NCBI RefSeq assembly: GCF_904066215.1
Contig: NZ_LR880474.1
Coordinates: forward strand, 1,426,001-1,490,000
From: Microbacterium sp. Nx66
GTDB lineage: Bacteria; Actinomycetota; Actinomycetes; Actinomycetales; Microbacteriaceae
DNA length: 64,000 nt
Reading direction: 5' to 3'
Shown: piece after piece, positions 17,427 through 39,689 of the stretch
Numbering within the stretch: position 1 is the stretch's first letter
How the letters are laid out: each line of letters opens with the position of its first letter
Notes under the pieces: model-generated
Seen by the model: the letters and a program-made list of their open reading frames with translations, nothing else
The model's database searches: none
Told to the model about the DNA's origin: nothing
Made by a program: the position numbers and the translations under genes

Positions 17427-17488
17427 CAGGCGATCACGCGAGGACAGGCGCCAGCCGCCGGTGTCGCCTGCTGTCGCGTGACTGCCTG
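17427..17488. repeat. Four-pentamer dyad element, copy A
   Basis: CAGGC at 17427 and 17445, GCCTG at 17466 and 17484: spacings 18, 21 and 18. The 13-nt spacers are partly complementary (TCACGCGA with TCGCGTGA), so copy A could also fold as a hairpin. It lies between two convergent genes. Confidence 0.8.
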
Positions 17489-17501: not shown

Positions 17502-18194
17502 TCAGCGCACGAACCCCGCCTGCACTCGACCACCCGCCATCGTCAGCTCCTCATCGACCCGCGCCGCGAAGCCGGGGAAGTCTCCAGCGAGCAGCGGAGT
17601 GCTGAGCTGGTCCGCGCGCTCGGGGCTCCACGCGCGCAGACGTCGGGGGAGCCACTTCCCGGATCCGATCCACTGCCCGCTGGCCAGCAGCATCAGCTCG
17701 GCCATGCGCTCGAACAGCAGGCCGGCGACGACGCGCTGCTCGAGAGGGTCCGTCGCGTCCTGGAGGTCGTCGAGGAGATCGGTGATCACGTACCGCCGGA
17801 TCCGCGACTCCGTCTCACTCAGCACAGAGCCGAGAGCGAGCACAGCGGACCACCGCGTCCGCAGTTCCGCGAGCGCGGGCGTCGACCGGATCGCGGCTCC
17901 TTCCACGAGCATGTGCGCGATGACGGGGCGGTGCTGGGCCACGCCGCGGTCCGCCCACTCCCGGAACCCTTCCACCGTGTACGCGAACACCTCGAAGATC
18001 TCGTCCTCGAACGCGTGGGTGGCGGCCTCGCTCACCTGTGACACGTCGGCGAAGAGGTCGTCGTCGATGAGGAGGAGGTCGATGTCACTGGTGGGCGTGC
18101 GCTCCCCACGGGCCGTGCTCCCGGCGACGATCGCGATCCCTGCACGCGGATACCGCGCCACGAGGAAGCGCTCGATGCGCTCTGCCTGATCCAT
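17502..18194 (-). CDS. Nucleotidyltransferase-domain protein
   Basis: A 230-aa protein with the Pol-beta-type nucleotidyltransferase signature near the N terminus: GSTARGE, then SDIDLLLID with the metal-binding aspartates (about residues 26-45). The helical C-terminal two thirds resemble the substrate-binding part of stand-alone NTases, such as aminoglycoside or MNT-type enzymes. No HEPN partner is adjacent, so a toxin-antitoxin reading is not supported. The target is unknown. ATG 18194 was chosen because a TACCCT -10 lies 6 nt upstream; the frame is open further but non-coding in appearance. Confidence 0.78.
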   Translation of the reverse strand: MDQAERIERFLVARYPRAGIAIVAGSTARGERTPTSDIDLLLIDDDLFADVSQVSEAATHAFEDEIFEVFAYTVEGFREWADRGVAQHRPVIAHMLVEGAAIRSTPALAELRTRWSAVLALGSVLSETESRIRRYVITDLLDDLQDATDPLEQRVVAGLLFERMAELMLLASGQWIGSGKWLPRRLRAWSPERADQLSTPLLAGDFPGFAARVDEELTMAGGRVQAGFVR

Positions 18195-18219: not shown

Positions 18220-18281
18220 CAGGCGGCCGCTGCGGTACAGGCAGTCCTGCCCGGGAGCGCCTGATTCGACGTCTTCGCCTG
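18220..18281. repeat. Four-pentamer dyad element, copy B
   Basis: CAGGC at 18220 and 18238, GCCTG at 18259 and 18277: spacings 18, 21 and 18, identical to copies A and C, although the spacers share almost no sequence. It lies between two minus-strand genes. Confidence 0.8.
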
Positions 18282-24088: not shown

Positions 24089-24150
24089 CAGGCTCCCACG
24101 CGGAGTCAGGCTGTTCCCGCGGTGGGCGCCTGCTGCCGCGCGAATGCCTG
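24089..24150. repeat. Four-pentamer dyad element, copy C
   Basis: CAGGC at 24089 and 24107, GCCTG at 24128 and 24146: spacings 18, 21 and 18. It lies between the LOG stop and the nusA promoter, on the strand of both genes. Confidence 0.8.
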
Positions 24151-38369: not shown

Positions 38370-38450
38370 CAGGCTCTCGCGCCGCTTCAGGCGTCTTGCT
38401 GTCTTTCTTGCCTGAACTTGCGTGAGGGCCTGTGTCCGCGTGGCCGCCTG
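38370..38450. repeat. Dyad element, copy D1, with an extra fifth pentamer
   Basis: CAGGC at 38370 and 38388, GCCTG at 38410, 38428 and 38446: spacings 18, 22, 18 and 18. Part of a tandem duplication with D2 between convergent pfkA and the DUF559 gene. Confidence 0.8.
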
Positions 38451-38472
38451 TTCTCACGACCTCACGCCGTGT

Positions 38473-38535
38473 CAGGCTCTCGCGTGGCTTCAGGCGTCTT
38501 GCTGTCTTTCTCGCCTGAACTTGCGTGAGGGCCTG
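38473..38535. repeat. Dyad element, copy D2
   Basis: CAGGC at 38473 and 38491, GCCTG at 38513 and 38531: spacings 18, 22 and 18. The sequence is almost identical to D1 (for example 17 of 18 bases from the second CAGGC on), unlike other copies, so D1/D2 is a recent local duplication. Confidence 0.8.
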
Positions 38536-38552: not shown

Positions 38553-39455
38553 CTATCCGCGACCCGTCGCTCGATGGTCTGCGCGATGGAGCCCCTGCGC
38601 GAGCGCGGCCAGGACGGTGTCCTCGACATGACGGTCGTCGACCATGACCTGGTGATAGTCGAAGCGGAGGACCGTGTAGCCGCGGAGTGCGAGCCTTGCG
38701 TCGGCAGCGAGGTCGCGTCGCCGGTCGCCCGCGGCGCTGTGGTGGCGGAAGCCGTCGATCTGGATGGCGAGCCGTTCGCCGATGACACCGTCGAGCGGAT
38801 GGCCGTCGACCCACACCTGCTGTCGCACGTCGATGCCGACCGCGCGCATCCGTTCGACGAAGACCGTCTCGGGACCGGAGTCCGACCGGCCGCGGACGGT
38901 TCGAGCAAGGCGGTTCGCGGCATCGCACCGCCACCGGACGCGTGCGAGGGTGTCCAGTTCCACGGCCCCGTGGCGGACGGCGGACTCCCAGATCGCGCGG
39001 GCCTCGATCAACGGCCGGCATCGCGCGACCTGGAACAGGACGCCTAGGACAGGATCGACCGCCGCCCGCGGATGCACCGGAACGGGCCCCTGTGCGCAGT
39101 GCACCTGGACGCCGACGCGATCGAATCGAGAGGCGGTGCGGGGGAGGGCGACGTGCACCTCCGCGGCCCCGACATCCCACCATCCGGCGAGGGCCGCCGC
39201 GCTCACGCAGGTGACCCTTCCGCCCACGGATGCTGCGGCCCTGCGCCGTGGATCGACCTCAGGGACGAGCAGCCACGACCGGCGCACGCGCTCAAGCGTC
39301 CCTTCCCGCACCGCCCGACGCATCTGGTACTCGGTGAAGCCCGCCTCGCGCACGCGCGACGAATGCGCGGATCCTCCCTGCTCCCGGACCCAGCTCTCCA
39401 CCCGTGTGCGTGTCACCCCTCCACCCTGCGGGCTCCCGCTGCCGCGCTTCACCAC
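38553..39455 (-). CDS. AbiEi-like winged helix plus DUF559 nuclease-fold protein
   Basis: 300 aa from GTG 39455; GTG 39416 directly after GGTGGAGGG is an alternative. The N-terminal ~60 residues (TRVESWVREQGG, REAGFTEYQMRRAV) match the winged helix of AbiEi-type antitoxins. The C-terminal ~110 residues form a DUF559/Vsr-like PD-(D/E)xK fold: ETVFVERMR, then DGHPLDGVIGERLAIQIDGFRHH and VLRFDYHQVM. No AbiEii nucleotidyltransferase toxin adjoins. Such fusions are common in actinobacteria and their role is unknown. Dyad elements flank the gene on both sides. Confidence 0.75.
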   Translation of the reverse strand: MVKRGSGSPQGGGVTRTRVESWVREQGGSAHSSRVREAGFTEYQMRRAVREGTLERVRRSWLLVPEVDPRRRAAASVGGRVTCVSAAALAGWWDVGAAEVHVALPRTASRFDRVGVQVHCAQGPVPVHPRAAVDPVLGVLFQVARCRPLIEARAIWESAVRHGAVELDTLARVRWRCDAANRLARTVRGRSDSGPETVFVERMRAVGIDVRQQVWVDGHPLDGVIGERLAIQIDGFRHHSAAGDRRRDLAADARLALRGYTVLRFDYHQVMVDDRHVEDTVLAALAQGLHRADHRATGRG

Positions 39456-39524: not shown

Positions 39525-39604
39525 CAGGCCTCCACGCGAGCTCAGGCCAGGACAGGCATGGGCGCCTGACGCCCCGCGCGTGCCTGACTCCGCGCCGATG
39601 CCTG
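39525..39604. repeat. Dyad element, copy E1, with extra pentamers
   Basis: CAGGC at 39525 and 39543, GCCTG at 39564, 39582 and 39600: spacings 18, 21, 18 and 18; an additional CAGGC at 39553 is out of register. Confidence 0.75.
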
Positions 39605-39628
39605 TGCCGGCGTCGCGCCCCGCCAGCA

Positions 39629-39689
39629 CAGGCGTGCGCGAGTTCAGGCCAGGTCAGCGCGCAGGCGCCTGATGTCGCGCGAGCGCCTG
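39629..39689. repeat. Dyad element, copy E2
   Basis: CAGGC at 39629 and 39645, GCCTG at 39667 and 39685: spacings 16, 22 and 18, so the left arm is 2 bp short. It ends 11 bp before the ptrB stop. Confidence 0.7.

Follow-up and report, generated by a model that had tools for sequence, protein, structure and literature searches.

Dispersed DNA dyads in Microbacterium as candidate cognate sites of an AbiEi-Vsr-like fusion protein

We examined a stretch of 64 kb (the window; GC content 0.71) from the 3,457,093-bp genome of Microbacterium sp. Nx66, in which a first-pass annotation had reported seven copies, at five sites, of an inverted-repeat element with the pattern CAGGC-N13-CAGGC-N(16/17)-GCCTG-N13-GCCTG, here called the dyad. 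All seven were found where that annotation had placed them; six are exact, and the seventh, at 39629, is degenerate, with the 16-bp first step that had been reported. A single gene (38553..39455, minus strand, start codon uncertain) has a doubled dyad on each side, near 38.4 kb and near 39.5 kb, and its product is predicted to fuse an AbiEi-like part (residues ~15-188) to a Vsr/EDxHD-like nuclease part (~191-290). On the 3' side of this nuclease gene lie D1 (38370..38432), 14 bp past the stop of the phosphofructokinase (PFK) gene, and D2 (38473..38535), 17 bp past that of the nuclease gene itself; both are exact in pattern and arms, and they have a loop in common. Upstream of the gene, E1 (39525..39586) is likewise exact, and E2 (39629..39689) joins a degenerate arm, the one with the 16-bp step, to a strong arm at 39667-39689. 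D1 and E1 each possess a third arm (38428-38450 and 39582-39604). With regard to an AbiEii nucleotidyltransferase toxin as operon partner, the nuclease gene is the sole gene predicted in the window between PFK and the prolyl oligopeptidase (POP) gene. The dyads beside the nuclease gene (38370-38535 and 39525-39689, with their third arms) are not the only ones doubled in tandem; other sites show the same arrangement, again with similar loops.

The dyad pattern is real and lies far above chance. Genome-wide, 32 copies are exact, against zero matches to the reversed control pattern. The window holds 15 single arms against 0.27 expected (s.d. 0.53, largest 3; 100 dinucleotide shuffles). A 37-bp half-site matrix trained on copies from other genomes only found, at a score of at least 14, 15 arms in the window, all within the seven copies, and none in 20 Markov shuffles. 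The dyad comprises two inverted 23-bp half-sites separated by 16-17 bp, about 62 bp in total. Profiles of 64 arms from this genome and 163 from others are conserved from about -10 to +26 and then flat, with the consensus CRCGCGRGAT-CAGGC-GATCRCGCGRGAT-CAGGC, and the 16-17 bp centre is the only free part. The earlier description of the spacers as not conserved thus holds for the centre and fails for the half-sites. The window has no Rfam match at gathering score, and neither the element nor its pairing with a nuclease is described in the literature searched, in line with the earlier remark that it was not recognised as a described family; subscription papers fall mostly outside that search.

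As had been claimed, all window copies are intergenic by predicted genes. The three sites away from the nuclease gene are exact in pattern and match the matrix: dyad A (17427..17488; matches on both arms) lies between convergent genes, dyad B (18220..18281) lies 3' of an RNase II-like gene, and dyad C (24089..24150) lies 3' of a lysine-decarboxylase-like gene. Across the genome, and with genes called by a simple purpose-made caller, 19 of the 32 copies fall in tandem gaps, 11 in convergent gaps, and 1 in a divergent gap, while 1 overlaps a predicted gene; at one further copy, L009, a predicted gene end extends into the dyad. Divergent gaps account for 1 of 26 dyad sites versus 11 of 28 window gaps of at least 70 bp (p 0.002). 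Tandem sites are closer to the stop of the upstream gene in 14 of 16 cases, and the median distance from dyad to stop is 14 bp (25 sites).

Several lines of evidence bear on the protein encoded between dyads D and E. PF18741 scores 36.2 bits, just below its cut-off of 38.2, PF04480 also matches, and PADLOC models of AbiEi match residues 17-122. The AlphaFold model (pLDDT 89.4), which has matches in the PDB, is predicted to contain both an AbiEi fold and the fold of a Vsr/EDxHD catalytic domain. Residues E196, D222, D234, H239, and D248 are invariant in 26 members, and we infer that they correspond to an E, D, H, D active-site motif. Carriage by plasmids or phages was considered and rejected, with no match in a collection of either kind.

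The gene and the dyads occur together. We compared the PFK-POP locus in 11 named Microbacterium genomes selected for the presence of CAGGC dyads. Eight carry the gene, and all eight have dyads on both sides of it; the three that lack it show a bare junction (SA39), a partial dyad (MYb54), and one dyad plus remnants (M. oxydans NBRC 15586). Genome-wide counts of CAGG dyads are higher in carriers (LCT-H2 32, M. resistens 50, M. algeriense 26, M. oxydans BEL163 23, A20 14, M. paraoxydans EaN35-6 10, ASV81 8, and M. hydrocarbonoxydans 6) than in these three genomes (NBRC 15586 5, SA39 2, and MYb54 9; one-sided p 0.02). We also searched 98 genomes for CAGG-N14-CAGG-N16..21-CCTG-N14-CCTG. Genes scoring above 250 bits, a limit chosen once scores were known, were called tier-1; presence was scored from the matches listed, and genomes outside them were counted as lacking the gene. 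Among the matches listed, at least three dyads were present in 19 of 20 same-genus genomes with a tier-1 gene versus 5 of 39 without (p 5e-10, a value that ignores shared ancestry); 27 of those 39 had no dyad at all. Three named genomes share coordinates with G029, G014, and G040, so the two association tests are not independent. The taxonomic range recorded for the pattern is a minimum, and many of the listed matches outside Microbacterium resemble chance matches within genes. G001 was scored as a miss even though palindromes of period 19 flank its gene. The association also follows the gene to other places: the tier-1 gene adjoins PFK and POP at 17 of 22 loci and lies elsewhere at 5, and dyads are present at 4 of those 5, the exception being G050, in which the gene is disrupted and dyads are absent.

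Where the gene has diverged, the motif has diverged too. Of the 17 genomes in which the gene shows 49-57% identity, 13 contain no exact CAGGC dyad (exceptions: G014 with six copies, G027 with two, G007 and G033 with one each). Instead, the flanks of divergent orthologues carry dyads of the same geometry and a different motif: CAGGTGTTCTGGCG in G049 and G017, CAGGGGATGCCACGAG in G058, CAGGAGATCTC in G025 and G028, and CAGGACAAATCACCG in G037. In G029, G049, and G058, for which many places are listed, nearly every copy carries the variant of its own genome. G013 encodes two genes, one with CAGGA-type dyads and the other with AAGGC-type dyads. Its CAGG matches number 3 genome-wide, and its AAGGC-type dyads number 9, of which 3 are at the gene and 6 elsewhere; the AAGGC type has no copy in G031, G025, G047, G049, or G001. 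Outside the tetramers, dyad distance tracks protein distance (Mantel r 0.52, 24 loci), and with PFK distance removed the partial correlation is 0.42 (20 loci; p 0.0002, the floor of 5000 permutations). Dyad and protein therefore diverge together beyond species distance.

The best explanation as a whole, to which we give a probability of about 0.72, is that the dyads are cognate sites of the fusion nuclease encoded between D and E and that the dispersed copies are kept in step with it. That they are cognate sites at all, with binding as the underlying contact, is very probable given the sequence evidence. A site-specific nuclease that acts as a dimer would be expected to look like this, an AbiEi-like and EDxHD-like fusion encoded beside its target, a pair of inverted 23-bp repeats spanning 62 bp; I-Bth0305I, for instance, dimerises on a target of nearly 60 bp (PMC3943268). 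We propose that the AbiEi-like part binds the dyad as double-stranded DNA, one subunit per 23-bp half-site and a pair on the ~62-bp whole, which would bring the nuclease part to lie on the free centre of 16-17 bp or close to it. Autoregulation of the nuclease gene through the upstream dyad E is probable, as with AbiEi operators, and the other dyads would be dispersed copies of the site, kept in step with the nuclease of each lineage. Taken together, the data point to a nuclease partnered with a dispersed family of DNA sites, a pairing not described before.

In the tier-1 dyads examined, the tetramers retain AGG, and most have CAGG. Vsr repair acts in the context CCAGG, which includes CAGG, and the nuclease domain may therefore read the CAGG of the dyad.

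How the copies came to be dispersed is a separate matter. Spread would most likely proceed by nuclease-stimulated recombination or copying between dyads, although we put the chance that the nuclease drives it at slightly under even. Recombination between dyads could also leave other genes bracketed by two of them, and three such segments were found as individual cases. In M. oxydans BEL163, two dyads 9 kb apart have 97.6% identity across 82 bp, and their flanks are unrelated; the outer flanks of the pair correspond to the two sides of a single Nx66 dyad at 328277. The island between them (L373:1793-10861) resembles a fucose-utilisation cluster, with a LacI-family regulator, a sugar-transporter-like ABC set, and an alpha-L-fucosidase, and the orthologous place holds a single dyad in both Nx66 and LCT-H2. 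In M. algeriense (L311), dyads at 2001 and 2884 enclose a 0.8-kb segment where Nx66 has one dyad, and a neighbouring gene is inverted; this segment contains an open frame of ~230 codons whose product looks secreted. Conversely, the gene between dyads A and B was not found in M. algeriense, which has one dyad in its place. Only two pairs indicate copying as a unit of ~80 bp. Two contigs of G055 carry identical dyads, which were considered as evidence of mobility and rejected, as both lie within an identical segment of 643 bp.

Individual dyads are constrained and long-lived. In 14 dyads orthologous between Nx66 and LCT-H2, identity is 97.9% at the pentamers, 90.7% in the CRCGC core, 79.5% at other spacer positions, and 75.7% in the loop, compared with 91.6% in the surrounding sequence to 150 bp; the Nx66 copies were picked for intact pentamers, which makes pentamer changes on that branch invisible. 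The pentamers are thus under constraint in place, which suggests that binding matters at single sites. Nx66 and LCT-H2 match by position at 9 of 9 sites over 160 kb, and sites are shared with Nx66 at 9 of 13 in M. algeriense (G029) and 3 of 7 in G005. The genomes G049, G058, and G036, which carry other variants, share 0 of 20 sites with Nx66 (blastn against 26 Nx66 loci, gene locus excluded). Dyads stay in place for a long time, and lineages with other variants have separate sets of sites.

A number of observations weigh against the proposed partnership, in addition to the shared ancestry and the late choice of the 250-bit limit mentioned above. At least three dyads occur without a tier-1 gene in G053 (16), G044 (8), G019 (6), G040 (5), and G016 (3). 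The copies in G053 are of the G058 type and those in G019 are CAGG dyads, and no tier-1 gene was found in either assembly; the coordinates of G040 coincide with those of NBRC 15586, a genome without the gene at the PFK-POP locus, and the assemblies of G044 and G016 are 88% and 86% complete. In G036, TAGGC-type dyads flank the gene, yet three listed dispersed copies start with CAGGA or CAGGC. AAGGC-type dyads also occur outside G013 (one each in G037 and G036, two in G401), and the reversed control of that search gave 8 matches in G001 and none in the other eight genomes. Residue Q232 is invariant in the 26 members and stands where DUF559 proteins have a Glu, so nuclease activity is not certain. 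With respect to spread, no recent dyad movement between Nx66 and LCT-H2 was seen in 160 kb, no alignment break between them lies within 0.9 kb of a dyad, and no clean empty site with a target duplication, as expected for a MITE of an insertion sequence, was present among the junctions read. The near-identical dyad pairs could be products of gene conversion rather than insertion. Finally, the constraint on dyads in place suggests that each site has a use, and spread of a purely selfish kind would require none.

The alternative that survives best, though we consider it unlikely, is that the fusion is an autoregulated defence or conflict protein whose dyads are operators and anchors that spread by ordinary recombination without the nuclease. 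AbiEi antitoxins do autoregulate through inverted repeats (PMC7319586), and both the PADLOC matches and the constraint on the pentamers would suit such a role. However, most dyads in Nx66 lie just 3' of genes rather than at promoters, as the shortage of divergent sites and the proximity of tandem sites to the upstream stop indicate, and the genomes with other motifs share none of their 20 sites outside the gene locus with Nx66.

The placement of dyads shortly after stop codons and the complementarity of the consensus arms would also fit an RNA hairpin or transcription terminator at gene 3' ends, and the first-pass annotation had left open whether a protein or dimer reads the pentamers or a hairpin forms, with covariation of the spacers as the deciding check. 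Within genomes, arms do not covary (0.623 matched versus 0.612 shuffled, z 1.4; 180 dyads, 15 genomes) and loop ends do not pair (z -2.1; the same number of dyads, stratified by genome). The value for Nx66 alone is weak (z 2.1), and that for mixed genomes (z 4.5) is confounded by species. Within 20 bp, a run of five T occurs in none of 64 flanks and a run of four in one, and the motif itself, beyond pairing, tracks the nuclease. A hairpin or terminator is thus very improbable. Because arms and loops lack covariation within genomes, the dyad looks like a DNA site of two independently bound half-sites rather than an RNA hairpin; the protein half of the earlier suggestion stands, with the product of the gene between D and E as the candidate reader.

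Equally improbable are sites for a host nucleoid or replication protein with the nuclease gene between two of them by chance, since the genome-wide intergenic distribution that favours this idea is outweighed by the 27 same-genus genomes with neither gene nor dyad among the matches listed, by a motif that tracks the nuclease beyond species distance, and by the two dyad types beside the two genes of G013. More generally, the number of dyads and their motif vary among genomes along with the nuclease gene, which argues against a general housekeeping role.

Among known systems, REPIN/RAYT is the nearest in behaviour, not in parts. According to PMC3116915 and PMC3733652, REPINs are short dispersed extragenic pairs of inverted repeats that form tandem clusters, and each family belongs with a cognate gene, which has repeats of that family on both sides and diverges with them. 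The dyads likewise flank the nuclease gene and are dispersed between genes. In contrast, the partner here is an AbiEi-Vsr-like fusion rather than a Y1 transposase, and the arm covariation expected of a hairpin is missing. Y1 (HUH) transposase PF01797 was found in 0 of 35 same-genus genomes, including Nx66, and the 2 of 58 genomes with a match belong to other genera; no GTAG tetranucleotide ends the repeat in the arm profiles. Identity with REP/RAYT was rejected for want of a Y1 transposase.

The AbiE operators resemble the dyad in their paired 23-bp inverted repeats and in the AbiEi-like fold predicted for the putative reader. According to PMC7319586, the two 23-bp inverted repeats bound by AbiEi are separated by 3 bp, and Rv2827c binds two such pairs, each with its repeats 13 bp apart, unlike the 16-17 bp found here. 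The dyad system also differs from AbiE in having no adjoining toxin gene, a fused nuclease domain, and dozens of genomic copies. Homing endonucleases of the EDxHD type (I-Bth0305I) and Vsr offer a further comparison. A homing endonuclease gene would interrupt its own target, whereas the nuclease gene lies outside any intron or target, with whole putative target copies on both sides.

A broader and more tentative idea, somewhat below even odds, is that AbiEi-Vsr fusions of Microbacteriaceae each own a dyad family that spreads by cut-and-repair and loads or unloads gene cargo, as an unrelated counterpart of REPIN/RAYT. The fucose-utilisation-like island of BEL163 would be an example of such cargo. 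If true, evolution would have arrived a second time, independently, at the kind of repeat-plus-enzyme partnership that tyrosine transposases exemplify. A group of DUF559/Vsr-like proteins whose role in these bacteria has so far been unknown would gain a candidate DNA target that can be read beside the gene, and many natural enzyme-site pairs would become available for studying the evolution of DNA recognition. As each gene is accompanied by its own site in the flanks, specificity, cleavage, and spread can be tested directly.

Several paralogs of the nuclease gene (40-46% identity; tier-2) accompany a different dyad, of CGCAG type and period 19, which brackets the paralog in G055 and G044 and adjoins it in G051. 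CGCAG dyads were found in 14 of 98 genomes, all of the same genus, with at most 16 copies, and in 14 of 44 tier-2 carriers versus 0 of 15 others (p 0.01); the reversed control gave one match each in G011 and G060. No CAGG dyads are present at tier-2 loci. We also searched flanks for palindromes, loosely and with shuffle controls, using a limit (18 of 24 matches, z 3) that was set afterwards. By this measure, 1 of 6 tier-2 loci passed on both sides, 2 on one side, and 3 on neither; a GTCGC/CGCAG repeat at L283 and L288 could be discerned only by eye. In other genera of the family, relatives (41-47% identity) have palindromic flanks with motifs of their own, and 11 of 17 such loci passed on both sides, 4 on one side, and 2 on neither. 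Tier-3 loci L282 and L284 and the Nx66 locus L285 passed on neither side, and L286 had no match.

L283 is the tier-2 paralog of Nx66 itself, near 2.044 Mb, with GTCGCAG repeats in its flanks, and the genome contains one exact CGCAG dyad, at 979809. DUF559/Vsr-like proteins number several per genome. The gene bracketed by dyads A and B (17502..18194, minus strand) encodes a nucleotidyltransferase domain (Pfam PF01909). A link between this gene and the AbiEi-like reader is conceivable, since AbiE toxins are also nucleotidyltransferase-like. The same gene has weak matches to candidate defence families (PDC-M05A).
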